Source: Actinomycetospora succinea
GTDB taxonomy: Bacteria; Actinomycetota; Actinomycetes; Mycobacteriales; Pseudonocardiaceae
DNA length: 64,000 nt
Direction of reading: 5' to 3'
NCBI RefSeq assembly: GCF_004363095.1
Contig: NZ_SNYO01000007.1
Coordinates: forward strand, 1 to 64,000
Shown: positions 12,768 to 36,792 of the stretch, piece by piece
Position numbering within the stretch: the stretch's first letter is position 1
Layout: every line of letters begins with the position of its first letter
Notes under the pieces: model-generated
The model's input: only the letters and a program-made list of their open reading frames with translations
The model's database searches: none
What the model was told of the DNA's origin: nothing
Made by a program: the position numbers and the translations under genes

Positions 12768-14624
<1,857 letters not shown>

Positions 14625-14717
14625 CCCCCGACCGGCGGGGCCGCGGTCACCGCGGCCCCGCCGGTGCGGGTCGTCCCGTCCGCCAGCTCCGACCACATGC
14701 CTCTCGAGGAGGTCACA

Positions 14718-15458: not shown

Positions 15459-15508
15459 CGCGATCCTGACCACCCCATCCCCCACACCGCGGAAGGAGCA
15501 GTCCCGAC

Positions 15509-18705: not shown

Positions 18706-18935
18706 GGACGACGTTCCTCCTCGGCCCCCCGGCGCACGGACCACGTACCCGCGCGACCGGACCACTATGACACCCCGTCAGCGATCGTCACGCAGGGTCC
18801 CCAACGCGGGCCCGTCGTCCGGCTCGCCACGTGCGCCGGACGGTGTGCGTACGCACGCTGAGCAGCGACGACGGTCCGATATGCGGCACTCCACCGTCGT
18901 TGCAGTGGGTGACCGGTCACCGTGACGAGTCGAAG

Positions 18936-18961
18936 GGAAGAAACCGCGCTCCCACAGAGTT
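18936..18961 (+). promoter_or_regulatory. SigH/SigR-type promoter match before clpB
   Basis: GGAAG (18936-18940), 18 bp, GTT (18959-18961). The last base of the -35 deviates from GGAAY. The GTT is also the first three bases of the HAIR, so HspR binding would directly cover the -10. Confidence 0.45.
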
Positions 18962-18979
18962 GAGCGAGATAGACTCAAG
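18959..18979. promoter_or_regulatory. HAIR operator before clpB
   Basis: GTTGAGC-N7-ACTCAAG matches the HspR consensus at 12 of 14 fixed positions and lies 62 bp before the clpB start codon. Confidence 0.9.
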
Positions 18980-19041
18980 TCAGGACCGCGGCGGCTGGTG
19001 GGCCGCCCGTCCGCACCCGTACGCAGCGCAGGAGGAACCGC

Positions 19042-21633
<2,592 letters not shown>

Positions 21634-21799: not shown

Positions 21800-23182
21800 T
21801 CAGTGCCGGGTCGCCGCTGCCGTGAGGACGCCGTCCGGGTCGTAGGTGCGGGCGATGGCGTCGAGACGGGCGGTGTGCGCGCCGAACACCGCGTCGCGGT
21901 CGGCGTCCTCGTCGAGGCCGGCGAAGTTGACGTAGACGCCGCCGGTCGCGGACGGGGTGAGCCGGTCCCACGCCCGGCGGGCCCAGCCGATCGCGGCGTC
22001 GTCGTCGGCCGGGTCGGACCAGCCGGCGTCGATGCTGACGTTGAACCGGGCCCGGCGGTGGGCGAACGCCGTCTCGTCGTCGCCGACCGCGGCGACCGCG
22101 CCGCCGAGGGTGCGGACGACCGCGATGCACTGCGGGGTCGGGCGCCCCTCGCCGCACGCGACGACGGCCTCGGCCGCCGCGTCGGTGAGCTCCTCCAGGA
22201 AGTGCGACTTGAAGAAGTAGCGGTTCCCGGCCGGGAAGAGCGGGTCGAGGGCGGACTGGCTCGCCGTGTAGTCGGTGATCGCCGTGGCGTCCATCAGCGG
22301 GGTGCCGAGGCGGGCCAGCGGTGCGAGCACCGCGAGCCCCTCGTCGGCCGGGCCCGCGTACAGCCCGGCGACGGCGATCACCGGCATCCCGTGCATCTCG
22401 GCGGGGATCGCCGGGTCGGGGGGCACGCTCCAGATCGCGTACTCCGGCGAGACCGTGTCCGGCATGCGGGGCACGAGGTCGCGCCAGGCGTCCAGCACGG
22501 CGGCGGCCTGGTCGTACGGGTAGAGCACGAGCGCGCTCGCCACCTGCGGGCCCAGCGGCCGCAGCGCGAACTCCATCGTCGTCACGACGCCGATGCCGCG
22601 CCCGCCGCCGCGCACCGCCCAGAAGAGGTCCGCGTGCTCGGTGGCGCTCGCGGTGCGCGCGACCCCGTCCGCGGTGACGATCTCCACCGCGCGCAGGGCG
22701 TCGCAGCTCAGGCCGTACGCCCGCTGCAGGGCGCCGATCCCGCCGCCGAGGGTCAGGCCGGCGACGCCGGTCTCGGACACCTCGCCGCCGGCGACGACGA
22801 GGCCGTGGCGCTGGGTGGCGGCGTTGACGTCGGACCAGCGCGCGCCGGCACCGACCCGCGCGGTGCGGGCCGCCGCGTCGACGGTCACCTCGGTCATCCC
22901 CGACAGGTCGATCACCAGGCCGTCGTCGCAGACGGCGCTGCCCGCGACCTGGTGGCCGCCCCCGCGGATGCTCACGACCGGACGGTGCCGACGGGCCACG
23001 GCGAGCGCGGCGACCACGTCGGTCACGTCGCGGCAGCGGGCGATGACCAGGGGATGGCGGTCGATGAGGCCGTTCCAGACCCGGCGGGCCTCTTCGTAGC
23101 GGTGGTCGGTGCGGTCGATGACGTCGCCGGTGATCTCCGCGCGCAGCGCGGCGACGAGGGTCCGGTCCGGGGTGATGGTCAT
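21800..23182 (-). CDS. FAD-linked oxidoreductase, berberine-bridge-enzyme type
   Basis: 460 residues. The FAD-binding domain has SIRGGGHQVAG, in which H77 is the expected 8-alpha-histidyl FAD attachment. The motif that would supply a second, cysteinyl bond reads GVAGLTLGGGIG with no Cys, so only single covalent attachment is predicted. A BBE C-terminal segment (VYVNFAGLDEDADR) completes the fold. Such enzymes oxidise alcohols, sugars or natural-product intermediates. ATG 23182 has AGGAG seven bases upstream. It lies 26 bp downstream of the small monooxygenase gene and is probably co-transcribed with it from the promoter region shared with the SARP gene at 23631. Confidence 0.88.
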   Translation of the reverse strand: MTITPDRTLVAALRAEITGDVIDRTDHRYEEARRVWNGLIDRHPLVIARCRDVTDVVAALAVARRHRPVVSIRGGGHQVAGSAVCDDGLVIDLSGMTEVTVDAAARTARVGAGARWSDVNAATQRHGLVVAGGEVSETGVAGLTLGGGIGALQRAYGLSCDALRAVEIVTADGVARTASATEHADLFWAVRGGGRGIGVVTTMEFALRPLGPQVASALVLYPYDQAAAVLDAWRDLVPRMPDTVSPEYAIWSVPPDPAIPAEMHGMPVIAVAGLYAGPADEGLAVLAPLARLGTPLMDATAITDYTASQSALDPLFPAGNRYFFKSHFLEELTDAAAEAVVACGEGRPTPQCIAVVRTLGGAVAAVGDDETAFAHRRARFNVSIDAGWSDPADDDAAIGWARRAWDRLTPSATGGVYVNFAGLDEDADRDAVFGAHTARLDAIARTYDPDGVLTAAATRH

Positions 23183-23208: not shown

Positions 23209-23499
23209 TCAGGCGTGGGTGAGGGCGCCGAGGGACTCGTCCACGTCCCAGCCGCGGACCTCGAGGTCGGCGAACGCCGGGTGGCGGCGCAGGCCGTCGA
23301 CGAGCGGGCCGTCGCGGTACGCCTCGGCGGCGGCGCGGTCGGTGAAGAGGTAGAAGCCGCCGTGGTGGGACCCGTTGACCAGCCAGGTCTTGGCGACGAA
23401 CCCGGGGACGGTGCGCAGCGCCTCGGCGAAGGCGACGGCGCCGTCGCGGGTCTGTTCGGCCGGGGCGGACGAGGTGAACGTGATGTGCAGGGCGTACAT
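23209..23499 (-). CDS. YdhR-like monooxygenase (dimeric alpha-beta barrel)
   Basis: 96 residues. The sequence pattern LHITFTSSAP, PGFVAKTWLVN and GGFYLFTDRAAAEAYRDGP is that of the YdhR/ABM-like ferredoxin-fold family, which includes cofactor-free quinone-forming monooxygenases. ATG at 23499 is the natural family start. Divergent from the SARP gene at 23631, with a SARP-box-like triplet in the shared 131-bp region, and upstream of the BBE-type flavoenzyme: the pair could act on one aromatic substrate. Confidence 0.85.
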   Translation of the reverse strand: MYALHITFTSSAPAEQTRDGAVAFAEALRTVPGFVAKTWLVNGSHHGGFYLFTDRAAAEAYRDGPLVDGLRRHPAFADLEVRGWDVDESLGALTHA

Positions 23500-23567
23500 G
23501 GTGGGTGCTCCGGTGGTCGCGGTGCGTGTCGGCCGGACGGTCCGACGCCGGGAACTCTGGGCCGATC

Positions 23568-23596
23568 GGCTGGCACGCCCCTTGCACGTCGCTGAC
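23568..23596 (+). promoter_or_regulatory. SARP-box triplet between monooxygenase and SARP genes
   Basis: Heptamers GGCTGGC (23568), CCCTTGC (23579) and CGCTGAC (23590) repeat with an exact 11-bp period. Seven bases after the last is CATGCT, a possible -10 (23604-23609). SARP regulators bind direct heptamers with 4-bp gaps about 8 bp before the -10. Confidence 0.6.
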
Positions 23597-23630
23597 AGCC
23601 CGGCATGCTCATCACGGGGAGTGGTGCCGG

Positions 23631-26480
23631 GTGGGCGACGTCGAGCGGGGCGCACGCGTCGGCGTCGACGTGCTCGGGCCGCTGCGGCTCGCCGTCGACG
23701 GCGCCGCGGTGGACGTGCGCGGGCCCAAGCGCCGCGCCGTGCTGGCCCTGCTGGGGCTGGCCGAGGGCCGCACCGTCACCGTCGAGCAGCTGGTGGACGC
23801 CCTGTGGCCGGACGACCCGCCGGAGTCCGCGCGCGCCACCGTCCACAGCCACGTCTCCCGGCTGCGCGCCGACCTCGGCCCGGCGGGCGGGCCCTGCCTG
23901 ACCACCGACGACGGCGGCTACCGCCTCCACCTCGCCGAGGGCGGCCTCGACCTGCGGCGCGTCCGCGCGCTGCGCGACCTCGCCCGGGCCACCGACGACC
24001 CGGCCACGGCCGTGGGGCTCCTGCGCGAGGCCCGGGCCGCGTGGCGGGGCACGGCGCTCGCCGACCTCGCCGACGTGCCCCCGCTGCGCGCGGTGGCGCA
24101 GGCAGCCCGCGAGCTCTGGCGCGACGTCACCGACCGCCTCGCCGCCGCCCTGATCGCCACCGGCGCGGCGGAGCAGGCGCTGGAGCCCGCGGGCGACGCC
24201 CTCGCGGACGACCCGCTGTGCGAGCCCGCGGTCCTGCTGCTCGTGCGGGCGCAGGCGGCCACCGGCCAGGCGCCGCGGGCCCTGCAGACCGCGCGGGAGT
24301 ACCGGGCGCGGCTCGCCGACGAGACGGGGCTGGATCCCTCGCCGGCCCTCGCCGCGCTGGAGAGCGAGGTCGCGGCGGGCGAGGTGGTGCCGGCGCCTCG
24401 CGTGTCACCGGAGACCCGACTCGGCCTGCACGGCCGGGACCGCGAGCTGGCGGCGACCGAACGGCTGCTCGCCAGCGAGCGGCTGGTCACCGTGGTCGGG
24501 GCCGGCGGCGTCGGGAAGACGCGCCTGGCGCGCGAGCTCGCCCGCCGTTCCCCCGGCGCCGCGACGCTGCTGCTCGCGCCGGTCACCGACCCTGCCGGCG
24601 TCCCCCACGCGCTGGCCGACGCGCTGCGCCTGCACACCGGCACCGGCGACGTCCTGCGCGCGTGCCTCGACGTGCTCGCCGGGACCCCGCGGCTCGTGGT
24701 GCTGGACAACTGCGAGCACCTGCTCGACGCGGTCCGCGAGCTCGCCGGTGCGCTGCTCGAGCACTGTCCGGCGACCACGCTGCTCGCCACGAGCCGCGAG
24801 CCGCTCGGGCTGGGCGAGGAGGCCGTCGTCCGCCTCGCGCCGCTCGCGACACCCGGGGCGGTGTCGGCGGGGTCGGCGGACCTGGCGGCGGTGCCCGCGG
24901 TCGCCGTCTTCCTCGACCGCGCCCGCCGGGTGCGCCCGGACCTCGCGTTCGGGCCCGACGAGCTGCGCGACGTCGCCGAGATCGTGCGCCGCCTGGAGGG
25001 CCTGCCCCTGGCCATCGAGCTGGCCGCGGGCCGGCTGCCGACGTTCGCGCCCGCCGCGCTCGCGGCCCGCCTCGACCGCTCGCTGGACCTGCTCGGCAGC
25101 CGGGCCCTGCACGAGCGCCACCGCACCCTGCGGGCGACCGTGGCGTGGTCCTACGACCTGCTCGGCGTCGACGAGCAGCGCCTCTTCCGGCACCTCGCCG
25201 TGTTCGCCGACGGCGTCGACCTCACCGCCGTGGAGACGACGGCGGCGGCACTCGGGCTCGGCGGCGACGCCGGTGACCTGCTCGCGCGGCTGGTCGACGC
25301 CTCGATGGTCGAGGCCGTGCCCGACCCCGCCGGGCGCACCCGCTACCGCATCCTGGAGACGCTGCGCGCCTTCGGGCGCGACGAGCTGGTGGCCGCCGGA
25401 GAGGACGACGCCGCCGACGCGCTGCTGGTGGCCTGGGCCGTCGAGCTCGCGGGCTGGGCGCAGCGGACCGCGCGGACCGCCGACGAGGCGGCCGTCGACC
25501 GGACGCTGCGCCGGGAGCAGGGCAACCTCCGCGCGGCCTGGCGCCTGGCCCGCAGCCGCGGCGACCTCGACGCGGCCGTGGCCGTGATCGTCCTGCTCGT
25601 CGAGGCCGCGACCTGGCGCGACCTGGTGGAGATCCGCGGGTGGGCCACCGAGCTGCTCGACGACCCGGCGCTGGCCGGGCACCCGGAGGAGGGCCAGGTG
25701 TGGGCAGCGGCCGCCCAGGACGCCTACATGCGCGCCGACGCCCGCCGCGCCGACCGGCTCGCGCACACCGGCCTGGAGCGCCCCGCCGGGGTCGAGGGGC
25801 GGCGGTTCAACCGGTCGGTGCTCGCGCAGGTCGCGCTCACGCTCGGGGACTGGGAGGCCGCCGTGGACCACGACGTCGCGGCCCGCGCGCTGGCCACCGG
25901 CCCGGTGCCGCAGCCCGGGGTCGGCGCGCTGGGCGCCCTCTACGCCGGCGACCCGGCGCGGGCCCGCGCGCTGGTCGCCCGCATCCCCACCGGCGACGTG
26001 CCGACCCTGCGCGGGCTCGCCGCGTACGTCACCGCGGAGATCGACAGCGTCGAGGACCGGGTCGACGCCGCCGCGGACGGCTACGCGACCGCGATCGCGC
26101 TGGCCCGCGCGGTGGGGTCGACGTTCCTCGAGGCGATCGCCGCGGTCGGCCTCGCGTCGCTGCGGTCGCGGGTGGGCCACCTCGCGGCCGCCCTGCGCGG
26201 CTACCGCGACGTGATCGACCACTGGGCCGAGGGCGGCAACTGGGGCCATCAGTGGGTCACCCTGCGCAACCTGGCCGTGCTGCTGCGGACCCTCGACGAC
26301 CACGCCACGGCCGACCTCCTCGACGCCGCCGCCGACCGCGCCCCGGACGCCCCGGACCCGCCGGGCGGGCGCGGTGTCCCGGACCCCGCCGCCCCGGACC
26401 GCGACCGGGCGCTCGCCCTCGCCCGCGACGCCCTCGCGCGCCACCTCGCCGGCAGTGACAGCGGCGTGCACGCGCGCTGA
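23631..26480 (+). CDS. AfsR-type regulator 1 (SARP, NB-ARC ATPase, TPR)
   Basis: 949 residues. OmpR-like DNA-binding domain (about 5-95), bacterial transcriptional activator (BTAD) domain (about 95-245, ending YRARLADETGLDPSPAL), then an NB-ARC/STAND ATPase with Walker A GAGGVGKTRLA (about 289-299) and LVVLDNCEHLLD, followed by helical TPR-like repeats (about 620-930). Such proteins activate secondary-metabolism genes upon ATP-dependent assembly. The GTG at 23631 gives the usual N-terminus; GGGGAG lies about ten bases upstream. Heptamer triplets lie before this gene and, overlapping its stop, before the next operon. Confidence 0.9.
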   Translation: MGDVERGARVGVDVLGPLRLAVDGAAVDVRGPKRRAVLALLGLAEGRTVTVEQLVDALWPDDPPESARATVHSHVSRLRADLGPAGGPCLTTDDGGYRLHLAEGGLDLRRVRALRDLARATDDPATAVGLLREARAAWRGTALADLADVPPLRAVAQAARELWRDVTDRLAAALIATGAAEQALEPAGDALADDPLCEPAVLLLVRAQAATGQAPRALQTAREYRARLADETGLDPSPALAALESEVAAGEVVPAPRVSPETRLGLHGRDRELAATERLLASERLVTVVGAGGVGKTRLARELARRSPGAATLLLAPVTDPAGVPHALADALRLHTGTGDVLRACLDVLAGTPRLVVLDNCEHLLDAVRELAGALLEHCPATTLLATSREPLGLGEEAVVRLAPLATPGAVSAGSADLAAVPAVAVFLDRARRVRPDLAFGPDELRDVAEIVRRLEGLPLAIELAAGRLPTFAPAALAARLDRSLDLLGSRALHERHRTLRATVAWSYDLLGVDEQRLFRHLAVFADGVDLTAVETTAAALGLGGDAGDLLARLVDASMVEAVPDPAGRTRYRILETLRAFGRDELVAAGEDDAADALLVAWAVELAGWAQRTARTADEAAVDRTLRREQGNLRAAWRLARSRGDLDAAVAVIVLLVEAATWRDLVEIRGWATELLDDPALAGHPEEGQVWAAAAQDAYMRADARRADRLAHTGLERPAGVEGRRFNRSVLAQVALTLGDWEAAVDHDVAARALATGPVPQPGVGALGALYAGDPARARALVARIPTGDVPTLRGLAAYVTAEIDSVEDRVDAAADGYATAIALARAVGSTFLEAIAAVGLASLRSRVGHLAAALRGYRDVIDHWAEGGNWGHQWVTLRNLAVLLRTLDDHATADLLDAAADRAPDAPDPPGGRGVPDPAAPDRDRALALARDALARHLAGSDSGVHAR

Positions 26481-26481
26481 C
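26453..26481 (+). promoter_or_regulatory. SARP-box triplet before the PIG-L/MFS operon
   Basis: CAGTGAC (26453), GCGTGCA (26464) and CGCTGAC (26475) have the same 11-bp period. Outer units are good, the middle one weak. TGCACG-NN-CGCTGACAG recurs almost identically at 23583-23598. The site overlaps the stop codon of the SARP gene. Confidence 0.55.
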
Positions 26482-26538
26482 AGGACCCGGCCCGACCCTC
26501 GACGGCGTCACCGACCGACGCCGAGCGAGGAGAGCGCC

Positions 26539-27318
26539 ATGACCATCACGACGAGCACCCGCACCGACCCCGTCGTCCGCACCGTCGACGCCGTGCACCG
26601 GCTCGGCACGATCGTCGGCGTCTGGGCGCATCCCGACGACGAGGTGTACCTGTCCGGCGGGCTCATGGCGGCCGCCGCGGCGCGCGGTCAGCGGGTCGTC
26701 GTCGTGACCGCCACCCGCGGCGAGCACGGCACCGACGACCCGGGCACCTGGCCGCCCGCACGGCTCGCCGCGCGGCGGTCCCAGGAGATCGTCGACAGCA
26801 TGGCCGCGCTGCACGACGCCGTCGAGCACCGCTTCCTCGGCGACGCCCGCGGCCGCTGTCACCTCGACGGATCCCTGCGCGGCGACCCCGGCGCGGACAC
26901 CGTCGACGAGCTCGCGGGCGTCCTCGCCGACGTCGCCCCGGACACCGTCCTGACGTTCGGGCCCGACGGGCTCACCGGGCACGGCGATCACCGCGCGGTG
27001 TCGGCGTGGACCGACCGGGCCGTGCGGCAGCTCGCCGGCGCGTCGCCACGCGTGCTGCACGCCTGCGTCACCGCCCGCTGGGTCGAGCGGTTCGGCGAGT
27101 TCGTCGAGCCCATGGACGACGGCGACGACGCGTTCGCGCCCGTCCCGTCCGAGCACCTGGCGGTCGAGCTCGAGCTCGGCGGCGACGTCCTCGCGCGCAA
27201 GGTCGCCGCGCTGCGCGCCCAGTCGACCCAGACGGCGTCGCTCGAGGCGGCGCTCGGGTCCGCGCGCTACGAGGACTCCGTCGCCGGCGAGTACTTCCGC
27301 CCGGCGGGTCGGTCGTGA
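26539..27318 (+). CDS. PIG-L/LmbE family deacetylase
   Basis: 259 residues. AHPDDE (A30-E35) is the zinc-binding motif of GlcNAc-PI de-N-acetylases, and GHGDHRAVS supplies the distal His ligand. Relatives deacetylate GlcNAc-inositol (MshB), mycothiol conjugates (Mca) or sugar-decorated natural products. The sequence does not tell which; a separate mycothiol gene would be expected elsewhere. GCGAGGAG precedes the ATG. The stop overlaps the MFS start (GTGA), so export of the product or substrate is likely coupled. Confidence 0.9.
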   Translation: MTITTSTRTDPVVRTVDAVHRLGTIVGVWAHPDDEVYLSGGLMAAAAARGQRVVVVTATRGEHGTDDPGTWPPARLAARRSQEIVDSMAALHDAVEHRFLGDARGRCHLDGSLRGDPGADTVDELAGVLADVAPDTVLTFGPDGLTGHGDHRAVSAWTDRAVRQLAGASPRVLHACVTARWVERFGEFVEPMDDGDDAFAPVPSEHLAVELELGGDVLARKVAALRAQSTQTASLEAALGSARYEDSVAGEYFRPAGRS

Positions 27319-28499
27319 GGACCGCGACGGCGGGCCCGGGCCGGCTGCTGGCGGTTACGGTGGCCGCCACCGGCGTGGGCCTCGGCCTCGCCACCGGCAC
27401 CGGTCCGCTCGTGGGGCCGGTGGCCGCGGAGTTCGGGGTCGCGCGCGGCGCCGTCGCCGTGATGCTGGCGGCGACCCTCGCGGCGACGCTCGGGCTCGGC
27501 GTCGTCACCGGCCCGTGGAGCCAGCGCCACGGGGCGCGGCCGCTCGTCGTGCTCGCCGCCGCGGCGATCCCGGCAGGCCTGCTCGTGCTCGCCGTCGCCG
27601 GGTCGTTCCCGGTGGCGGCCGCAGGGTTCGCCCTCGGGGTCGGCGGCGGCGCGGGATGCCTGTTCGTGCCCCTGCAGACCGCGGTCGCCGCGGTGATCGA
27701 GCGTCATCGCGCGGCGGCACTCGTGGTCGCCTCGGCGGGCGCGGGGCTCGCGACCGTCGTCACCCCGCCGGCGACGGTCGCGCTCGTCGGCGCGCTCGGG
27801 GTCCGCGGCGCGGCGGTGGTGCTCGCGGTGGTGGCCGCAGTCGTCGTCGGCGCCTGCGTGCCGGCGGTGCCGAGCGGGCGCCAGGACGCGACGGCGGGCG
27901 CCACGGGTCTGCGCACCGTGCTGGCCGAACCGGCCTTCCGGCGCTTCGTGCTCGGTGCCGTCGGCGTCTGTGCGGCGATGTTCGTGCCGTTCGTGCACCT
28001 GGCCTCGTTCGCGACGATGCGCGGGGTCGGCCTCGCGACCGGTGCCATGCTGGTCGCCGTGGCGGGGGCGGCGAGCCTGCTCGCGCGCCTCGCGGCCGTG
28101 CCGGCCGTCGCCCGGTGGGGCGCGTGGCCGGTGTGCCGGGTGGGCGCGGTCGGGCTGACCGTGAGCGTGGCCGGCTGGCTGCTCGCGGACGGCCGGATGG
28201 CGGGGCTCGCCGCGTTCGCCGTCGTGTTCGGGGGCGCGCACGGCGCCTACGTCGGGGTGAGCGGCGCGGCGGCCGCGGAGCTCTTCGGTGTGGCCGACTT
28301 CGGGCTGCGGCTCGGGGTCATGCACCTCGCGGCGGCGGCCGGCGGGCTGCTCGGTCCGGCGGTGGCGGGCCTCGCCGCCGACGCGGCCGGGAGCCCGACG
28401 GCGGGGATCGCGGTGGCGGTGGCCTGCGGTGTCGCGGGGTGCGCGGTGTTCCTGTGCGCCGGGGTCACAGCGAGCGGGCCAGCGCGAGCGCCTCGGTGA
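27315..28499 (+). CDS. Major facilitator superfamily transporter
   Basis: 394 residues with about 12 hydrophobic helices. The R-H-G-A-R-P loop between helices 2 and 3 (SQRHGARPLV) fits the MFS motif-A region. The nearest familiar group is the YbfB/OFA-like monocarboxylate/efflux class, but the substrate cannot be read. Translationally coupled to the deacetylase. Its 3' end overlaps the convergent SARP gene by 35 bp. Confidence 0.85.
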   Translation: MRTATAGPGRLLAVTVAATGVGLGLATGTGPLVGPVAAEFGVARGAVAVMLAATLAATLGLGVVTGPWSQRHGARPLVVLAAAAIPAGLLVLAVAGSFPVAAAGFALGVGGGAGCLFVPLQTAVAAVIERHRAAALVVASAGAGLATVVTPPATVALVGALGVRGAAVVLAVVAAVVVGACVPAVPSGRQDATAGATGLRTVLAEPAFRRFVLGAVGVCAAMFVPFVHLASFATMRGVGLATGAMLVAVAGAASLLARLAAVPAVARWGAWPVCRVGAVGLTVSVAGWLLADGRMAGLAAFAVVFGGAHGAYVGVSGAAAAELFGVADFGLRLGVMHLAAAAGGLLGPAVAGLAADAAGSPTAGIAVAVACGVAGCAVFLCAGVTASGPARAPR

Positions 28500-31302
28500 G
28501 CGGGGGCGGCGGTCCCGCCGGCCGATCGGGGTCGGTGGGGCGCAGGACGTCCTCGACGACGTCGCCGCGCGCGGCGCCCCCGGCGCGGTAGAGGAGGTCG
28601 GCGGGTCCCGGCCGGTCGGAGACGTGGGCCAGGCGGGCGAGCCACCGCAGGCTCAGCGCCACCTCGGAGGCGTACCCCAGGCCGGAGTAGGCGTCGAGGG
28701 CGCGGCGCAGGTGGTCGCGGGCCTCGTCCAGTGCGCCGTCGCGCAGCGCCAGCGCGCCGAGCGTGCGGCGGCTGACGCCGGCCCCGATGGGGTAGTCGAC
28801 CTCCTCGCACGCCCGCGCCGCGCCGTCCGACGCCGCGCGCCCGGCCCGCGGGTCGTCCGCCGCGAGCAGGCACCCGCGGACCGCGCCCGCCCACGCCACC
28901 AGGGCCGGGCTGCCGAGCGCCGGTGCCGCGCGGTGGGCCGCCTCGACCTGTTCGAGGGCCTCGCGGAGGCGTCCCGTCGCGGCCAGGGCGATCGCGCGGA
29001 ACGTCAGCAGCTCGTTGTGCCACGGCGTCATGGCGTGCGCGGCGGCGACCTCGAGGGCCTCCTCGGCCCAGCGCAGCGCGTCGTCGTCCCGGCCGGTCAT
29101 CCGCGCCCGGAAGAACAGCGCACGCCGGGCGTTCACCCCGGCCAGCGGCGACGACCCGGCGAGCGCCTCGTGCGCCAGCGCCGCGCCGCGCTCGGCCGAG
29201 CCCCGCAGCACGTGGGCGACCGCGGCCGCGGCGGCCGCCTCGGCGCGGGAGCGCCCGGAGGAGTCCGGCCAGCGCCGCAGCACGACGTCGCCGAGCTCGG
29301 CGACCGGCATCGCGCTGCGGTTCTTCAGGACGCTGCACATGGGCACGAACAGCGGCAGCGCGCGGTCGGGGCCCTCGTCGTGCGCGACGCACCAGCGCAG
29401 CGCGTCCGCGACGTCGGTGTGCAGGTTCTGCAGGGTCACCAGCAGGTCCACGGGCCAGGCGTGGACCATGCGGTCGCGGGCGTCGACGGCGGCGGCGAGG
29501 ACCGAGTCGACCCAGCGGTCGCGGACGGCCTGGAGCTCGCCCCGCTCCTCCAGCCGGTCGCGGGCGAAGCGCCGGATCGTGGCCAGGAGCGCGTACCAGG
29601 TGCGGCCCGCCCGCTGGTGCACCGTGATCATCGACGCCGCGACCAGGCGGTCGAGGTGGTCGACGGTGGCCAGCAGGTCGTCGTCGCCGGCCACCGCGTG
29701 GGCGTGGTCGGCGGTGAAGCGGCCCGCGAACACCCCGAGGCGGGCGAAGAAGCGCCGGGTCGGGTCGGGCAGCCGGTCGTGGGACCAGGCGACGGCGGCG
29801 TCGAGGCTGCGGTGCCGGGCGGGCCCGGAGGTCCCGGTGCGCCGCAGCAGGCGCAGGCGCCGGTCGAGGTGCTCGAGGACCTCCTCGGGCGTGAGGCTGC
29901 GCAGGCGGACGGCGGCGAGCTCGAGGGCGAGCGGGAGCCCGTCGAGGCGCCGGCACAGGGTGGCCACGGCGGCGGCGTCGGCGTCCAGGTCGAGGCGGGC
30001 CCCGCAGGCCTCCGCGCGCTCGGCGAGCAGCCGGGCAGCCGGGCTCCGGCGCACCGAGGCGGGGTCGTCGCTGTCGGGGAGCGCCAGGGTGCCGAGGGCG
30101 AGGACGTGCTCCTCGGGCAGCCCCAGCGCCTCGCGGCTGGTGGCGAGCACGGTGACGCCCGGGCACGACGCCAGGAGCCGGGCGACGGCGTCCGCGGCGG
30201 CGTCGAGCAGGTGCTCGCAGTCGTCGAGCAGGAGCAGCCGGTCCGCGCTCCCCAGGGCCTGGCCCGCCGCGTCCAGCGACGGGAAGCCCAGCGCGTCGGC
30301 GACGGCGCACGCCACGGCACCGGCCTCGGGGACGCCGTCGAGCTCGCACACCGCGACGGTCCGCCCGGCCTCCGCGGCCGCCGCGGCCCGCGCCACGCGT
30401 GTCTTGCCGACCCCGCCGGCCCCGACCAGCGTCACGACCCGGGCGAGGCCGAGCAGGCGCCGGGTCTCGGCGAGCTCGGCGTCGCGGCCGTGCAGGGTCG
30501 CCGTCGGGCTCCGCGACGGGGGCGCGCGGGGCGGGGCCTCCTCCTGCTGCGCGAGCACGGCCGCCTCCAGGGTCCCGAGCTCCGTGCTCGGGTCGAGCCC
30601 GGCCTCGTCGGCCAGGCGGGCGCGGTACCCGCGCAGCACGGCGAGCGCGTCGACGCTGCGTCCCGCGCGGGACAGCGCGGTGGCGAGCTGCAGGTGCGGC
30701 CGCTCGCGCAGCGGGTCGGCGGCCGCGGCGCGCTCCGCGTCGGGGAGCACCTCGTGGTGGTGGCCCGCGGCGAGCTCGGCGTCGAGGAGCTCGGCGCGCA
30801 CCGTGTGGGCCAGGGCGTCGAAGCGGACGCGGTCGGCGGCGAGACCGCTCGCCTCGGTGCCGGGGAGGTCGGCGAGGTCCGCCAGCCCGGGACCGCGCCA
30901 GCACGCGAGCGCCTCGCGGAGCAGCTCGCTCGCCTCGGTGGCGCCCCGCGCGGCGCGGGCACGGTGGAGCAGGTGCTCGGCCCGGTGCAGGTCCAGCTCA
31001 CCGGGCTCGACGACCAGCCGGTAGCCGGCGGGCTCGCGCCGCAGCCGGGCACCGACGTCGCCGAGGGACGCGCGGAGCCGGGACACCGTGGTGTGCAAGC
31101 GGGCGCGGGCCCGGTCGGGCGGGTCGTCGCCCCAGAGGGCGTCGATCAGTCGTTCGTCGCCGACCGGGTGGCCGTCGGCGCAGAGCAACAGCGCGAGCAC
31201 GGTGCGTGGCCGGACGCCTCCGAGGGCGACGGCGGCTCCACGGTGCCGGACCTCGACGGGCCCGAGCACGCCGAACTCGACGTCCACGCTCATCCCTCGC
31301 AT
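28465..31302 (-). CDS. AfsR-type regulator 2 (SARP, NB-ARC ATPase, TPR)
   Basis: 945 residues, same architecture as the gene at 23631: winged helix (VEFGVLGPVEVRH start), BTAD domain ending LADEAGLDPSTEL, NB-ARC with GAGGVGKTRVARA (about 290-302) and LLLLDDCEHLLDA, then TPR-like repeats. In-frame ATGs at 31320, 31302 and 31293 compete. A -10 TATGCT at 31316-31321 makes 31320 unlikely, so 31302 is used. Transcribed away from two methyltransferase genes, with a textbook SARP-box triplet between. Confidence 0.9.
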   Translation of the reverse strand: MRGMSVDVEFGVLGPVEVRHRGAAVALGGVRPRTVLALLLCADGHPVGDERLIDALWGDDPPDRARARLHTTVSRLRASLGDVGARLRREPAGYRLVVEPGELDLHRAEHLLHRARAARGATEASELLREALACWRGPGLADLADLPGTEASGLAADRVRFDALAHTVRAELLDAELAAGHHHEVLPDAERAAAADPLRERPHLQLATALSRAGRSVDALAVLRGYRARLADEAGLDPSTELGTLEAAVLAQQEEAPPRAPPSRSPTATLHGRDAELAETRRLLGLARVVTLVGAGGVGKTRVARAAAAAEAGRTVAVCELDGVPEAGAVACAVADALGFPSLDAAGQALGSADRLLLLDDCEHLLDAAADAVARLLASCPGVTVLATSREALGLPEEHVLALGTLALPDSDDPASVRRSPAARLLAERAEACGARLDLDADAAAVATLCRRLDGLPLALELAAVRLRSLTPEEVLEHLDRRLRLLRRTGTSGPARHRSLDAAVAWSHDRLPDPTRRFFARLGVFAGRFTADHAHAVAGDDDLLATVDHLDRLVAASMITVHQRAGRTWYALLATIRRFARDRLEERGELQAVRDRWVDSVLAAAVDARDRMVHAWPVDLLVTLQNLHTDVADALRWCVAHDEGPDRALPLFVPMCSVLKNRSAMPVAELGDVVLRRWPDSSGRSRAEAAAAAAVAHVLRGSAERGAALAHEALAGSSPLAGVNARRALFFRARMTGRDDDALRWAEEALEVAAAHAMTPWHNELLTFRAIALAATGRLREALEQVEAAHRAAPALGSPALVAWAGAVRGCLLAADDPRAGRAASDGAARACEEVDYPIGAGVSRRTLGALALRDGALDEARDHLRRALDAYSGLGYASEVALSLRWLARLAHVSDRPGPADLLYRAGGAARGDVVEDVLRPTDPDRPAGPPPPLTEALALARSL

Positions 31303-31315
31303 CCCGGGCGCACCG

Positions 31316-31321
31316 AGCATA
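31316..31321 (-). promoter_or_regulatory. -10 element of the SARP gene at 28465-31302
   Basis: TATGCT on the minus strand, exactly 8 bp after the last heptamer of the SARP box, which is the spacing known for SARP-activated promoters. Confidence 0.6.
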
Positions 31322-31329
31322 GGACCGCT

Positions 31330-31358
31330 GTCAGCGCGCGGACAGCGGCTTGTCAGCG
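31330..31358 (-). promoter_or_regulatory. Best SARP-box triplet (CGCTGAC/CGCTGTC/CGCTGAC)
   Basis: On the minus strand, CGCTGAC, CGCTGTC and CGCTGAC are separated by exactly 4 bp each (period 11). This is the strongest of four such sites, in the divergent region of the SARP gene and the first methyltransferase. Confidence 0.75.
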
Positions 31359-31416
31359 CCCGCACCGACCGTCGGCGGTGCCGGCGAGGAGCCGGCGGGA
31401 CGGTCAGGAGGCCGGG

Positions 31417-32451
31417 ATGGACCAGGACAAGGTGATGGCGTTCCTCGGGCAGGTCGTCACGGACATGGGGGCGACGGGGTCCGCGGGACAGGTGGTGATC
31501 GGCGGCCGGCTGGGGCTGTACCGCGAGCTGGCCCGCGGACCGGCGACGCCCGAGGTGCTGGCCGAGCGCACGGGGTGCGCACGGCGGTACCTCGCCGAGT
31601 GGCTGCGGGGGCAGGCCGCCGGCGGCTACGTCACGTACGACGCGACGACCGGCGAGTTCTCGCTGACCGAGGAGCAGGCGTTCTGCCTCGCCGACCCGGA
31701 GGGACCGAACGTGTCGGCGATCTTCCGGATCGGGCTGGGCTACCTGAAGGCGGAGCCGCGGATCGCGGAGGCGTTCCGGACCGGCGAGGGCATGCCCTGG
31801 CGCGACCACGACGAGGACGTGTTCGTCGGGTGCGACGCGTTCTTCCGGCCCGGCTACGTCGCCGAGCTGGTGCCGCACTGGATCCCCGCGCTCGACGGGG
31901 TCGCCGGCAAGCTGCGCGACGGCGCGCGGGTCGCCGACGTCGGCTGCGGCCTGGGCACCACCTCGGTGCTGATGGCCGAGGCGTTCCCGCGCAGCACCGT
32001 GACCGGCTCGGACTACCACGACGAGTCGATCGCGCTGGCCCGCAAGAAGGCCGCGGACGCCGGGGTGGGCGACCGCGTGGCCTCCGCCCAGGGGTTCACC
32101 GGCACCGGCTACGACCTGGTGACGACGTTCGACTGCCTGCACGACATGGGCGACCCCGTCGGCGCGGCCCGACAGGTGCTCGGCGCGCTGGACCCGGACG
32201 GGACGTGGCTGCTCGTGGAGCCCTATGCCGGCGACACCGTCGAGGAGACCCTCAACCCCGTCGGCCGGCTCTACTACGCGGCCTCGACGTTCCTCTGCGT
32301 GCCGAACGGGCTCTCGCAGCCGGGCGGCTACGCGCTCGGCGCCCAGGCCGGGGAGGTCGCCATCCGTGACGTGGTCACCACCGCGGGGTTCACGCGCTTC
32401 CGCCGGGCCGCGGAGACGGCGTTCAACCTGGTCTACGAGGTACGGCCCTAG
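31417..32451 (+). CDS. SAM-dependent methyltransferase with Rv2258c-like winged helix (copy 1)
   Basis: 344 residues. An N-terminal winged-helix dimerisation domain (about 15-90, VLAERTGCARRYLAEWLRGQ region) is followed by a class I methyltransferase domain with VADVGCGLGTTS (about 170-181) as SAM motif I and FDCLHDMGDP as the post-II acidic region. This is the Rv2258c-type layout, related to small-molecule O-/C-methyltransferases. AGGAGG sits five bases before the ATG. A paralogue follows 52 bp downstream. Confidence 0.88.
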   Translation: MDQDKVMAFLGQVVTDMGATGSAGQVVIGGRLGLYRELARGPATPEVLAERTGCARRYLAEWLRGQAAGGYVTYDATTGEFSLTEEQAFCLADPEGPNVSAIFRIGLGYLKAEPRIAEAFRTGEGMPWRDHDEDVFVGCDAFFRPGYVAELVPHWIPALDGVAGKLRDGARVADVGCGLGTTSVLMAEAFPRSTVTGSDYHDESIALARKKAADAGVGDRVASAQGFTGTGYDLVTTFDCLHDMGDPVGAARQVLGALDPDGTWLLVEPYAGDTVEETLNPVGRLYYAASTFLCVPNGLSQPGGYALGAQAGEVAIRDVVTTAGFTRFRRAAETAFNLVYEVRP

Positions 32452-32478
32452 GTGACAGCGGGACGGCAGCGGTCGGAC
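32450..32478 (+). promoter_or_regulatory. SARP-box triplet before the second methyltransferase
   Basis: AGGTGAC (32450), GGACGGC (32461) and GTCGGAC (32472), period 11 bp with AGCG in both spacers. It lies in the short gap between the paired methyltransferases, suggesting the second has its own promoter. Confidence 0.55.
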
Positions 32479-32503
32479 AGGGCCCGCCGTCACCGTCGTC
32501 GCC

Positions 32504-33586
32504 ATGACCACACTGGAGAACGCCCGCACCACCGAGAACTGCGCCGAGACCGTCTTCGGCTGGATCCTCGGGATGGAACAGAGCGCCGCGCTCTACCTCG
32601 GCGACCGGCTCGGCTGGTACCGGTCGCTCGCCGAGGAGGGGCCGGCCACGGCGCCGGAGTTCGCCGCGCGCACCGGGACCGCGGCCCGGTACGCGCGGGA
32701 GTGGCTGGAGCACCAGGCGGTGAGCGGCATGCTCACCGTCGACGACCCGGGCGCCGCGCCCGACGCCCGGCGCTTCACGATCCCGGACGCGCACGTCCCG
32801 GTGCTCGCCGACCTCGACAGCGAGGACGTCCTGACGCCGTTCGCGCGCATCCTCGTCGCGACCCTGCGCCGCGTCGACGACCTGCTCGAGGCCTACCGCA
32901 CCGGCGGCGGGGTCAGCTGGGAGACGTTCGGCGACGACGCGCGGGAGGGCCAGGCGGCGCAGAACCGCCCGCTGCTGCGCGACGCGCTGTGCCGCGACCA
33001 CCTGCCGCTGCTCGGCGACGTCGACCGGGCCCTGCGCGCGGGCGGCCGCGTCGCCGACGTCGGGCTCGGCGAGGGGTGGTCGGCGATCGGCATCGCCCGC
33101 GCCTACCCGTCCGCCACGGTCGACGGGTTCGACGTCGACGCCGCCTCGGTCGACGCCGCCCGCCGGCACGCCGCGGAGGACGGCGTCGGAGACCGGGTGA
33201 CCGTCCACCACGCCGGGATCGAGACCGCCGAGGCCGGCGCCTACGACCTCGTCTGCGCGTTCGAGTGCGTGCACGACATGCCCGACCCCGTCGGCGTCCT
33301 CGCCGCGATGCGCCGGGCCGTGGCGCCGGGCGGCACGGTGCTGCTCATGGACGAGAAGGTCGCCGACGCGTTCGCGCCCGACGGCGACGAGGTCGAGCGG
33401 CTGTTCTACGGCTTCTCGCTGATGTGCTGCCTGCCCGACGGGCTGTCCACGCCCGGCTCGGTGGGCACCGGCACCGTGATGCGCCGGGACACGCTCGAGG
33501 GATACGCGCGCGACGCGGGGTTCGGCGGCGTCGAGGTCCTCGACGAGCTGGACCACGAGATCTTCCGGTTCTACCGACTGCGCTGA
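32504..33586 (+). CDS. SAM-dependent methyltransferase with Rv2258c-like winged helix (copy 2)
   Basis: 360 residues, same layout as the preceding gene: winged helix (AARTGTAARYAREWLEHQAV region) and methyltransferase with VADVGLGEGWSAIG as motif I and FECVHDMPDPVG. Motif I has GLGEG where copy 1 has the more usual GCGLG. There is no clear ribosome-binding site before the ATG. The two copies are clearly related but strongly diverged, so they probably act on different positions or substrates. Confidence 0.88.
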   Translation: MTTLENARTTENCAETVFGWILGMEQSAALYLGDRLGWYRSLAEEGPATAPEFAARTGTAARYAREWLEHQAVSGMLTVDDPGAAPDARRFTIPDAHVPVLADLDSEDVLTPFARILVATLRRVDDLLEAYRTGGGVSWETFGDDAREGQAAQNRPLLRDALCRDHLPLLGDVDRALRAGGRVADVGLGEGWSAIGIARAYPSATVDGFDVDAASVDAARRHAAEDGVGDRVTVHHAGIETAEAGAYDLVCAFECVHDMPDPVGVLAAMRRAVAPGGTVLLMDEKVADAFAPDGDEVERLFYGFSLMCCLPDGLSTPGSVGTGTVMRRDTLEGYARDAGFGGVEVLDELDHEIFRFYRLR

Positions 33587-33608: not shown

Positions 33609-36236
33609 TCACGCTCCTCCGTCGCGTGACGTGCCGACGCGCGGCGCCGCGGGCTGGTGGCCGACGTCAGCTCCCGCGCCGGACCCGGATCCGCGTCGAG
33701 GTTCCACTCGTCCGCTGGTGCCGTCCACGCGCACCCACGCCACGTCGGCCAGGCGGGCGACGGCGTCGCGCACACCCACGACGGCGGGCAGCCCGTACTC
33801 GCGGGCGACGACGGCGCCGTGCGAGTTCGACCCGCCCATCTCCATCACCAGCCCGCCGGCGGTGAGAAACAGCGGCGTCCAGCCGGGGTCGGTCGAGGGG
33901 CAGACCAGGACGTCCCCGGGGTCGAGGTGGGCGCCCTGCGGGTCGGTGATCACCCGGACCTTGCCGGTGACCGTGCCCGCCGACGCCGGGACGCCGGTCA
34001 GCGCGCCGTCCTCGGCGGGCGCCGGGTCGGCCAGCGCCTCGGGCTCGGTGCCGTCGGAGAGCACGAGGCGGGGGACGTGGCGGCGGCGCAGTTCCCGCTC
34101 GTAGGTGGCTCTTCTCTGCGTAACCAGGGCGCGGCGGTCGAGGTCCTCGCCGGCCTCGGTGAGGCTGAGGAAGAAGACGTCGCCGGCGTCCTCGAGGTGC
34201 CCGGCGGCGGCCAGCTCGGCGCCTACTGCGGCGACCTCGGCCCGGGCGGCGCCGAGCACCGTGACCAGCCAGTACTTCGGCAGCTCGCGCAGCCCGACGA
34301 GCGCGCGGGCGCGGTGCAGCGCGAACGCCACGACCCGCCCGCGCAGGCCACCGGCGCGCCCGGCGAGGGTGCTGATCGTCGTCTCGGCCTCGGCGGCGCT
34401 GCGGGCGAACACGGCGTCCGGGGTGCGCGCGGGGTCGTCGAGGCGCACGTAGTTGGCCAGCACGCCGAGCAGGTACGCCGGGTCCTCGGACCACCGCGGC
34501 AGGCCGAGGTCGATCTCGGCGACCGCGCGCCGGCCGTGCTCAGCGAGGAAGGCGTCGAGGCCGGGCGGGCGGTCGCCCCGGGTCAGCGCGGCGACCGCCG
34601 CCGGGTCGTCACGCAGGCGGACGGCGAGGTCCCAGAGGGCCAGGTCCATCTCGGTGGTGACGTTGTGCGGCAGCCCGCGCAGCACCGTGCCGAGCTCGCC
34701 GGGCCGCGCGCGGTCGCCGAGCACCTTCGCGGCGAGCCCGAGCGCGAGGAACCCGGCGGCCGGGGCCGGCGCGATCCGCGGCGCCATCGGCGCGAACCCG
34801 TCGGAGAGCATCCACCGCGCCCGGTCGAGGCGCTCCGCGCGGCTCGCGCCCGCCGGGCACGGCAGCGTCCGCTCCGCGTCCCTGACCAGCGTGTACGCCC
34901 GCTCGCGGGCCCGTGCAGGTCGGATCCAGGCGCCGAGGACGTGGAGCGGGATGCGGTAGCGCAGGGCCACGCGGCCGACGCGGCGCAGCGCCGGCAGCGG
35001 CGAGCGCCGCGTCACCGACAGCTCGGGCCGGTCGAGCTGCGTGGCGATGACCTCGGCCGAGCGCCGCTCCATCACCCCGAGCACGCCGCGGACGCCGGCG
35101 CGCCCGACGCGGCTGCGCAGCACGTCGGTGAGGTCGACGAACACCCGCTCGCCGGCCTCGGACACCATCGGCGGGCCCTGCTCGGGGTCGTCGACCGGCG
35201 TCCCGAGCAGGCGCGCGACCCCCGTCGCGAGGTGGCGGGCCGCGGAGAGCCCGGCCGGGGTGAACGGGCGGAACACGCCCTGCGCGACGTTCGCGGACAG
35301 GAACATCCGCAGCCCCGGGCGGCCCGGGACGAGCGGGTAGAGCGTGGTGATCGGCCGCGACTGCGTCAGCCAGGCCGTGCCGTCGCCGTCGATCGCCCAC
35401 TCGGTGTCCTGCGGCGCCCCGAACAGCGCCTCGGCGCGGCGGCCGAGGTCGGTGAGCGCCCGGACGTGCCCGGCGTCCAGCGCGGCGGCGTCGGTGCGGG
35501 CGACGGACTCGGTGCCCCCGCCGGCCCGCGCGAGCACGACCGACCCGCCCACCCCGGCCCGGCGCTGCGCGATCGTGCCGTCGGGGTCGACGATGAGGTG
35601 CTCGGGATCGACCGACCCGGAGACCACGGACTCGCCCAGCCCCGGCGCCGCGTCGATCACCGACTGCCCGCGCCGCCCGGTGACCGGGTTCGCGGTGAAC
35701 AGGACGCCGGCCCACCGCGCGTCGACCATCCGCTGGACCACGACGGCGAGGGCGACGGCACCGTGGTCGATGCCCTGGGCGCCGCGGTAGGCGACCGCCC
35801 GGTCGGTCCAGAGCGACGCCCAGCAGCGTCGGACGGCCTCGAGGACCGCGTCGGCGCCGACGACGTTGAGCTCGGTGTCCTGCTGGCCCGCGAAGCTGGC
35901 GTCGGGCAGGTCCTCGGCCGTGGCCGACGAGCGCACGGCGACCGGGCCGTCGGGGCACGCGGCGCGCACGGCGTCGGCGACGTCGGCGGGGACCGGGACG
36001 GCGAGCACGGCGGCGCGGGCCTTCTCGCCCAGGACCTCGGTATCGGTGTCGAGCAGCCCGTCGAGCGCCGCGCCGACCGCGCGCCGGTAGGCCTCCGTGG
36101 TGACGCAGACGCCGCCGGGGACCGGGAGGCCGGCGCGCACGAGGGCCGCGAGGTTGGCCCCCTTGCCGCCGACCCGCCCGAGCGTCGCCGGGTCGTCGGG
36201 GTCGATCGCGTCGAGGGACAGCACCAGTGCGGTCAT
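33609..36236 (-). CDS. Rifampin phosphotransferase-like / PEP-synthase-like enzyme
   Basis: 875 residues. N-terminal ATP-grasp domain (about 1-310: GGKGANLAALVRAGLPVPGG, VRSSATAEDLPDASFAGQQ), a large middle domain (about 320-750) and a C-terminal swivelling His domain with GGSNSHGAVVAREYGLP (catalytic H806). There is no PEP/pyruvate TIM barrel, so this is the architecture and length of rifampin phosphotransferase rather than PpsA. RPH moves the beta-phosphate of ATP to the C21 hydroxyl of rifamycins. Specificity for rifamycin is not provable here; a related phosphotransfer to another substrate is possible. Start overlaps the marR stop (ATGA). Confidence 0.8.
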   Translation of the reverse strand: MTALVLSLDAIDPDDPATLGRVGGKGANLAALVRAGLPVPGGVCVTTEAYRRAVGAALDGLLDTDTEVLGEKARAAVLAVPVPADVADAVRAACPDGPVAVRSSATAEDLPDASFAGQQDTELNVVGADAVLEAVRRCWASLWTDRAVAYRGAQGIDHGAVALAVVVQRMVDARWAGVLFTANPVTGRRGQSVIDAAPGLGESVVSGSVDPEHLIVDPDGTIAQRRAGVGGSVVLARAGGGTESVARTDAAALDAGHVRALTDLGRRAEALFGAPQDTEWAIDGDGTAWLTQSRPITTLYPLVPGRPGLRMFLSANVAQGVFRPFTPAGLSAARHLATGVARLLGTPVDDPEQGPPMVSEAGERVFVDLTDVLRSRVGRAGVRGVLGVMERRSAEVIATQLDRPELSVTRRSPLPALRRVGRVALRYRIPLHVLGAWIRPARARERAYTLVRDAERTLPCPAGASRAERLDRARWMLSDGFAPMAPRIAPAPAAGFLALGLAAKVLGDRARPGELGTVLRGLPHNVTTEMDLALWDLAVRLRDDPAAVAALTRGDRPPGLDAFLAEHGRRAVAEIDLGLPRWSEDPAYLLGVLANYVRLDDPARTPDAVFARSAAEAETTISTLAGRAGGLRGRVVAFALHRARALVGLRELPKYWLVTVLGAARAEVAAVGAELAAAGHLEDAGDVFFLSLTEAGEDLDRRALVTQRRATYERELRRRHVPRLVLSDGTEPEALADPAPAEDGALTGVPASAGTVTGKVRVITDPQGAHLDPGDVLVCPSTDPGWTPLFLTAGGLVMEMGGSNSHGAVVAREYGLPAVVGVRDAVARLADVAWVRVDGTSGRVEPRRGSGSGAGADVGHQPAAPRVGTSRDGGA

Positions 36237-36691
36237 GACGGCCTCGTCTCCTGCCGCTGCGCGGCGGCGTCGCCCAGCAGGGCCATCGCGCGTCCCACCA
36301 GGGCCCGGTCCGCGGGGGCGAGGCGGTTCATGATCTCGAGCTGGGCGTCGGCCCGGGTGCGTTCGAGGCGGCGCAGCAGGCCCTGGCCGTCCTTGCTGAT
36401 CGCGACCCGGCGGACCCGCCGGTCGGTGGGGTGCTCCTGGCGCTCGACCAGGCCGCGGCGCACGAGGGCGTCGACGAGCCGGCTGGTCGCCGAGTGCGAC
36501 CGCCCGACCCGTTCGGCGAGGGCGCCGAGGGACACCGGCTCGCCGGCGTCGAGGACGTAGAGCGTCGCGAGCTGGGTCAGCGAGAGCTCGTCACCACCCT
36601 CGACGGCGTCGAGCAGGTCGAGCAGGAACGCGGGGATCATCGCGCGCCGCATGTCGCCGAAGCTGGCCGCCAGGCGTTCCCGCTCGTCCAT
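36233..36691 (-). CDS. MarR family regulator
   Basis: 152 residues with the winged-helix core (LGALAERVGRSHSATSRLVD, wing HPTDRRVRRVAIS). It is the first gene of an operon with the phosphotransferase-like enzyme and probably represses it until a ligand such as an antibiotic binds. ATG 36691 has AAGGA seven bases upstream; an upstream ATG at 36754 would place the operator within the coding region and is rejected. Confidence 0.92.
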   Translation of the reverse strand: MDERERLAASFGDMRRAMIPAFLLDLLDAVEGGDELSLTQLATLYVLDAGEPVSLGALAERVGRSHSATSRLVDALVRRGLVERQEHPTDRRVRRVAISKDGQGLLRRLERTRADAQLEIMNRLAPADRALVGRAMALLGDAAAQRQETRPS

Positions 36692-36699
36692 CTCGTTTC

Positions 36700-36732
36700 C
36701 TTGCAACTCTGCAATGTATGCAGTCATGCAAG
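36700..36732. promoter_or_regulatory. 33-bp two-fold symmetric MarR operator
   Basis: CTTGCA-N3-CTGCA-N5-TGCAG-N3-TGCAAG is exactly symmetric in all four half-elements. It begins 8 bp upstream of the marR start, touching its ribosome-binding site, and lies 60 bp before the divergent SARP gene at 36793. Confidence 0.8.
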
Positions 36733-36792
36733 CATCGGGTCGGCAGGCTGTCAAGCGGCGCTACGCTCCCGCCGCAGGTGGAGGGGGGCGTG

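Follow-up and report, generated by a model that had tools for sequence, protein, structure and literature searches.

The locus considered here raises the question of whether genes that look unrelated, encoding an oxidase, a mono-oxygenase, a deacetylase, a transporter and two methyltransferases, are controlled together by the large Streptomyces antibiotic regulatory proteins (SARPs) encoded between them. It lies in the first 64 kb of contig NZ_SNYO01000007.1 of Actinomycetospora succinea, a stretch of 75.6% GC, referred to as the window, in a genome of 6.47 Mb. The four enzyme operons of the locus are each preceded by three direct repeats of a GNCAGCG-like heptamer, which recur with a period of 11 bp (4-bp gaps) and are followed, after eight bases, by a -10 element of the form nAnnnT; the same layout stands before an alpha/beta hydrolase gene on another contig. 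As one layout is conserved at all of these switches, the unrelated-looking genes are probably switched on together. Very probably, SARP1, a large AfsR-like SARP of 949 amino acids with a DNA-binding domain, a BTAD domain and an ATPase domain (23631-26480, plus strand), is the activator of the four operons and the hydrolase gene, acting through SARP-dependent promoters.

A sequence-only reading of the window had described these repeats as heptamers of the type CGCTGAC, recurring three times at 23568, 26453, 31330 (minus strand) and 32450, and both the positions and the 11-bp period are present at all four places. When CGCTGAC x3 is scored in that register, 16, 14, 20 and 12 of the 21 positions match, respectively. 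However, 77 places in the window reach at least 14, compared with a mean of 88 in 100 dinucleotide shuffles, and four reach at least 16, compared with 2.45; a score of 20 occurs once and was never reached in the shuffles. As a CGCTGAC triplet, only 31330 thus clearly stands out, 23568 being weak and 26453 and 32450 at chance level. In addition, TGAC x3 with up to two mismatches is not enriched in the window (4 places versus 4.06 in shuffles), and in the genome CGCTGNC x3 with up to three mismatches is not commoner than its reversed control (155 versus 176). As a genus-wide detector, CGCTGNC x3 without a -10 was rejected, with nine matches against eight for the control (four of the eight in one genome). 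Counts of this kind speak for the idea that the repeats arise by chance or are codon-driven in DNA of such high GC content, an idea that is hardly credible in view of the conservation described below. The last heptamer had also been placed 8 bp before TATGCT, which is true on the minus strand at 31330, whereas at the other three places no nAnnnT stands at that spacing in the earlier register. On the shuffle counts and the missing -10 spacing, the CGCTGAC consensus and its registers were rejected.

The clue to the corrected reading came from the genome scan of CGCTGNC x3, which matched perfectly only at 31330 and at one place on contig C10, and with a single mismatch at 32454 (minus strand) and C4:122788. 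Read in the sense direction of the genes, the sequences before the two methyltransferase genes, OMT1 and OMT2, and before the hydrolase gene on C10 consist of G-N-C-A-G-S-G x3, the copies separated by 4 bp, with (G/C)ACCGT following after another 8 bp. The corrected code, GNCAGCG x3 followed by N8 and nAnnnT, is obtained by changing the strand at 23568 and 31330 and, at 26453 and 32450, by keeping the strand and moving the register by 4 bp, so that heptamer, strand and register are all replaced and every box is directed at an enzyme operon.

Site 1 (GTCAGCG-N4-GCAAGGG-N4-GCCAGCC; 23568-23596, minus strand), present in eight species, is followed at 8 bp by the -10 element CAGAGT (23554-23559, minus strand) and leads into the genes of a ydhR-type mono-oxygenase (23209-23499, minus strand) and a FAD-binding, BBE-like oxidase (21800-23182, minus strand). 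Site 2 (GACAGCG-N4-GCACGCG-N4-GACAGGA; 26457-26485, plus strand), which overlaps the 3' end of SARP1, is followed at 8 bp by GACCCT (26494-26499, plus strand) and by the genes of a PIG-L deacetylase (26539-27318, plus strand) and an MFS transporter (27315-28499, plus strand); in the -10 elements of both sites, the A and the T are invariant in 8 of 8 species. Site 3 (GTCAGCG-N4-GACAGCG-N4-GTCAGCG; 31330-31358, plus strand) is a perfect match, one of three in the genome, and is followed at 8 bp by GACCGT (31367-31372, plus strand) before OMT1 (31417-32451, plus strand). In reverse, it faces the gene of a second large SARP, SARP2 (942 amino acids; 28465-31293, minus strand). Site 4 (GACAGCG-N4-GGCAGCG-N4-GACAGGG; 32454-32482, plus strand) precedes OMT2 (32504-33586, plus strand), its -10 element CACCGT (32491-32496, plus strand) lying 8 bp beyond the operator, with 7 nt between it and the ATG and with the A and the T invariant in 9 of 9 species; the OMT2 message is possibly leaderless. 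Both methyltransferases also carry an HTH_65 domain. The earlier statement that the boxes precede the genes around them therefore holds for ydhR/BBE, PIG-L/MFS and the two methyltransferases, but SARP1 and SARP2 see their box in reverse orientation.

In the window, the four best places for the complete code are exactly these four sites; in numerical order they score 15, 14, 18 and 17 out of 18 heptamer positions, and all have both the A and the T of the -10 element, the next best place scoring 13. Scores of at least 14 together with a -10 element thus occur four times, compared with a mean of 0.26 and a maximum of 2 in 200 shuffles. With a slightly relaxed pattern, the whole genome holds only three places without mismatch, before OMT1, OMT2 and the hydrolase gene, a single place with one mismatch, which is site 1, and five with two mismatches, site 2 among them. 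Because the GNCAGCG reading was derived from sites 3 and 4 and from the site on C10, it is tested independently by the remaining two sites of the window, as well as by the other species and genera, but not by the three sites from which it came.

Conservation was followed in 18 genomes of the genus, that of A. succinea included, of which eight, again including it, hold a SARP1 orthologue at a threshold of E 1e-150; a ninth SARP1 genome, G015, is counted from an N-terminal piece at a contig end. In all seven further loci this layout precedes BBE or ydhR, PIG-L and OMT2, which brings the sites of these three promoters to 8 of 8 genomes with a SARP1 orthologue. The whole locus is found in genome G008, at 82-94% DNA identity by gene, and there the 18 heptamer positions of site 3 besides position 2 are all kept, the changes being confined to the spacers and to position 2 in two of the heptamers. 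At site 1, the corresponding 18 positions are invariant in eight species, and five of the eight spacer columns are invariant. Expressed as mean pairwise difference at the ydhR/BBE, PIG-L and OMT2 promoters, the G.CAG positions give 0.00, 0.02 and 0.04, the spacers 0.17, 0.18 and 0.65, and the N8 stretch 0.31, 0.51 and 0.48, with the -10 A and T invariant; in their middle repeat, sites 1 and 2 keep a variant, GCAAG and GCACG, respectively. Moreover, when triplets were picked by the heptamer alone, 23 of 26 promoters had nAnnnT at spacing 8, and none of the 14 other spacings between 2 and 16 had it in more than one promoter. Two of the three misses had been picked one repeat too far upstream and the third was truncated by the 200-bp range, as ydhR had been missed there, and all three have nAnnnT at spacing 8 in the right register. 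At locus L184 the downstream gene was called as BBE, although ydhR actually lies between. A tandem 11-bp repeat at G004:C12:83698 was set aside, being without nAnnnT at N8. A spacing peak at exactly 8, invariant cores next to varying spacers and the same places in eight species already contradict the chance or codon-driven explanation.

The sites go together with SARP1. A genus scan allowing up to one mismatch yields 29 matches, compared with 7 for the reversed pattern, and 26 of the 29 fall in the nine SARP1 genomes (control 4), the nine genomes without SARP1 holding three (control 3). The genes downstream are those of the regulon in 23 of the 29 cases, namely ydhR or BBE in nine, the hydrolase in six, OMT2 in five (one match, L193, being counted here by coordinates), OMT1 in two and PIG-L in one. 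Hydrolase orthologues of at least 76% are present in seven genomes, and all six that also hold SARP1 have the site with nAnnnT at spacing 8; no site was found at two more distant copies of the gene (G008:C68 and G012:C302). As this fifth target sits on another contig, the regulon is not, as had been proposed, a local one. The SARP1 protein matches the Pfam models Trans_reg_C (39.6 bits) and BTAD (69.8 bits), both over their cut-offs, which describes an OmpR-type DNA-binding domain followed by BTAD, and, for a central ATPase, AAA_22 at 30.2 bits with a cut-off of 27; for a C-terminal TPR part the length of the protein fits, but at E 0.001 none of the TPR models gave a match. While co-occurrence with SARP1 is observed directly, its binding to the sites and its activation of the genes are predictions from sequence.

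Both SARPs had been named as regulators of the sites, and of the two it is SARP1 that accompanies them: six of the eight loci lack SARP2, which has a close orthologue (88%) in 1 of the 17 other genus genomes, the next best reaching 48%. As a needed regulator, SARP2 was rejected, the sites persisting in loci without this gene. SARP2 and OMT1 are found together between MFS and OMT2 in two loci only, and this distribution suggests that the pair is a later insertion.

For the comparison with other genera, 80 OMT1 loci were sampled, with upstream DNA from 54 and neighbouring genes from 36, or from 40 loci once L034-L037 are added, and in 16 of these 40 a SARP gene is directly divergent from OMT1. 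OMT1 homologues divergent from a SARP1-type gene (52-56% identity) occur in Pseudonocardia, Nonomuraea, Geodermatophilus, Trujillonella, Micromonospora and Cellulomonas and in further metagenome-assembled genomes, and PIG-L is nearby in 8 of 14 such loci. GNCAG-type repeats followed by N8 and nAnnnT are present in 13 of these 14 promoters; in the fourteenth, from a metagenome-assembled Frankia genome, the last heptamer reads GCGAGCG, with nAnnnT at 8. Taking all directly divergent SARP-OMT1 pairs, 13 of 16 carry the pattern. When L049-L051 are added, 16 of 17 promoters compare with a shuffle mean of 0.25 and a maximum of 2, where the shuffles preserve base composition only and the three loci were added after their repeats had been inspected; the rule itself, which allows A at two positions, was set after inspection of the upstream DNA and was not blind. 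In 15 of the 17, heptamers with at least three of six matches each lie at 32, 21, 11 and 0 bp, so that the operator comprises four heptamers spaced 4-3-4. Taken alone, the best heptamer pair is followed by nAnnnT at spacing 8 in only 6 of 17, and it is a weak guide because it is often the upstream pair. A search of the literature on SARPs with four heptameric repeats found no paper. Together with the seven further genus genomes, these genera (for OMT1) back the earlier proposal that apparently unrelated genes are tied into one circuit. By eye, more distant OMT1 homologues (L068, L069, L071, L073, L075 and L076) show CGCAACG-like repeats with a weak -10 element (e.g. CATCGT) at about 8 bp, which looks like another SARP specificity for this one enzyme family.

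A number of results weigh against the reading that SARP1 acts through this code. Without the -10 element, heptamer triplets scoring at least 14, the level of site 2, are not clearly enriched in the window (23 versus 16.3), the observed count being reached in 18 of 200 shuffles, so that the case is made by the -10 element at spacing 8 and by conservation. In the A. succinea genome, up to two mismatches, the pattern is found 9 times and its reversed control 10 times; because the control is equally frequent at up to two mismatches, the pattern on its own is specific only at zero or one. The middle heptamer deviates from GNCAG at site 1 (GCAAGGG) and site 2 (GCACGCG), and the overlap of site 2 is with coding sequence. 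The last two heptamer positions, invariant at site 1, vary at sites 2 and 4 (0.30 and 0.37), and for this reason the conserved core is G.CAG and not the full heptamer. Orthologous sites, moreover, are not independent of each other, and two divergent pairs with distant SARPs (L035, 38%; L105, 36%) lack the pattern. As to the regulator, genome G013 has no SARP1 orthologue at the threshold, and at its hydrolase gene the repeats are followed by GACCGT at a spacing of 9. The same genome has a perfect OMT2 site, which stands in a stretch that holds OMT2, genes for a phosphoenolpyruvate (PEP)-synthase-like and a MarR-like protein, and SARP3, a third large SARP (953 amino acids; 36778-39639 in the window), and no SARP1; no other result speaks as clearly against SARP1 as the exclusive regulator. 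With VHSHVSRLR in SARP1 and LHTTVSRLR in SARP2, the recognition helices of the two are much alike, which makes cross-talk between them likely, and since other large SARPs also lie near similar boxes, a one-to-one assignment is not forced.

From these last results it might be argued that SARP2, SARP3 or several large SARPs together are the main activator, the heptamer being a specificity common to many large SARPs of the genus. The six genus matches outside the regulon point the same way, five of them having another large SARP gene at a distance of no more than about 3.5 kb, from which three of the five are directly divergent. However, the sites are present whether or not SARP2 is, its gene occurring in only 2 of 8 loci, and SARP3 was not found at the G001 and G003 loci, whose sequence reaches 4-5 kb past the MarR gene, yet the sites are there; the G004 locus, which stops 507 bases after OMT2, is outside the scope of this comparison. 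Furthermore, the SARP1 genomes hold nearly all of the genus matches, and in other genera it is SARP1-type genes that adjoin OMT1 with such boxes, so we regard another large SARP as an unlikely main activator. Other large SARP genes of the genus that are directly divergent from similar triplets can be seen at G000:C1:171933-171975 (L200:5934-5976), L182, L183 and L194.

A response regulator of the OmpR/PhoB type has a DNA-binding fold in common with SARPs and might equally bind 11-bp direct repeats, and a response regulator gene (40184-40840) with a histidine kinase partner indeed lies at 40184-42243; part of a review states that PhoP, too, recognises the AfsR repeats (PMC10972967). Nevertheless, in the window scan no box with a -10 element at this pair scores above 12 of 18, and the sites follow SARP1 through the genus, which makes such a regulator a very improbable candidate.

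With SARP1 as the most likely regulator, the mechanism would be as follows. Monomers of the large AfsR-type SARP would sit side by side along one face of the helix, each on one of the three GNCAGCG-like heptamers, and the bound protein, 8 bp upstream of a -10 element too weak to serve by itself, would stand in for a missing -35 element and recruit RNA polymerase. By this means ydhR/BBE, PIG-L/MFS, OMT1 and OMT2 would be switched on, as would the alpha/beta hydrolase gene in trans. The bound regulator would probably also set its own level at the SARP1 and SARP2 promoters, more likely as a repressor. The two genes are transcribed away from sites 1 and 3, which makes feedback likely, and -10 elements nearer to consensus stand beside the same operators in reverse: for SARP1, probably CATGCT (23604-23609, plus strand), 7 bp from the site 1 operator, where GGCATGCT is found in 8 of 8 species, and for SARP2, probably TATGCT (31316-31321, minus strand), 8 bp from the site 3 operator and kept in G008 as in the A. 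succinea genome. Because the box is reversed for these two genes, occlusion is expected, and autoregulation by occlusion, with negative feedback, is likely. More tentatively, and at present rather doubtfully, the operator could be a two-way element that activates enzyme genes in the forward direction and represses the SARP's own promoter in reverse, giving a self-limiting switch, and the four-heptamer operators could seat two tandem SARP dimers, activation needing a tetramer. The set of products, comprising a FAD oxidase, a mono-oxygenase, a deacetylase, a transporter, two methyltransferases and a hydrolase, suggests the tailoring of a small molecule, and the five operons likely form one pathway.

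Beyond OMT2 follow the genes of the PEP-synthase-like protein, of the MarR-like regulator, which has weak NCBIfam matches only, and of SARP3. The PEP-synthase-like protein (33609-36777 together with the MarR-like regulator) is related to rifamycin phosphotransferase Rph, with 519 bits, under the cut-off of 999. Upstream of SARP3, the window scan found no GNCAGCG triplet with a -10 element scoring at least 13; the gap there contains an element rich in TGCA, which shows good conservation in G008 and partial conservation in G016. On its other side, the locus is adjoined by the chaperone genes dnaK and dnaJ and the gene of a ClpB-type ATPase (12768-21633).

These results amount to a SARP regulon predicted to the base, by a code that at zero or one mismatch is specific enough for genome-wide target finding in GC-rich DNA. 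The hydrolase gene, which analysis of gene neighbourhoods would miss, joins the regulon in this way. In addition, the natural operator series, with three heptamers in one genus and mostly four elsewhere, is suited to asking how many SARP protomers act per promoter.

A comparison with known systems places the regulon among SARP-controlled ones. In the published geometry of SARP promoters, as outlined in parts of PMC10936776, the repeats stand at 11 or 22 bp and the last one 8 bp from the -10 element; here, likewise, direct heptamer repeats at 11 bp are found with the last repeat 8 bp from the -10 element. According to the same parts of that paper, the SARP domains of AfsR occupy the direct repeats next to one another, over the -35 region, and make contact with sigma region 4, and it is by analogy with them that the SARP1 mechanism is proposed; SARP1 aligns to the AfsR of the promoter-bound structures. 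At afsS of Streptomyces coelicolor, to judge from those parts, a large SARP likewise acts on 11-bp direct repeats over the -35 region under the 8-bp rule, before a -10 element that is as poor (CACTGT) as the CACCGT found here (PMC10936776). Unlike the three GNCAGCG heptamers described here, however, AfsR has two repeats, CGTT(T/C)ATCGNN, as given in part of PMC10972967, and because SARP1 reaches 89 bits with the NCBIfam AfsR equivalog model, whose cut-off is 1430, it is not an AfsR orthologue. The SARP-LAL regulator PimR, which is grouped with SanG and PolR, is similar in having three heptamers with 4-bp spacers, with a 3-bp spacer in a secondary operator, and its heptamer CGGCAAG resembles gGNCAGC; it differs in that its main operator lies off the -35 region with one target gene, against five promoters here, as far as the corresponding parts of PMC5930380 describe it. 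The operators between SARP1-type genes and OMT1 in other genera, with mostly four heptamers and 4-3-4 spacers, are also unlike those of PimR. An operator of the PimR type was considered and rejected, the heptamer here being GNCAGCG and the operator standing 8 bp upstream of the -10 element. The small SARPs ActII-ORF4 and DnrI act in polyketide pathways and, in this differing from the present case, on heptamers of the TCGAGC type. Some of their target promoters, according to parts of PMC10972967, carry three heptamers, as here. Searches of the literature found no paper on SARPs in Actinomycetospora and, by title and start of abstract, none on this regulon, the nearest being that on the PimR operators (PMC5930380). 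The kind of system is known, and the regulon is new.

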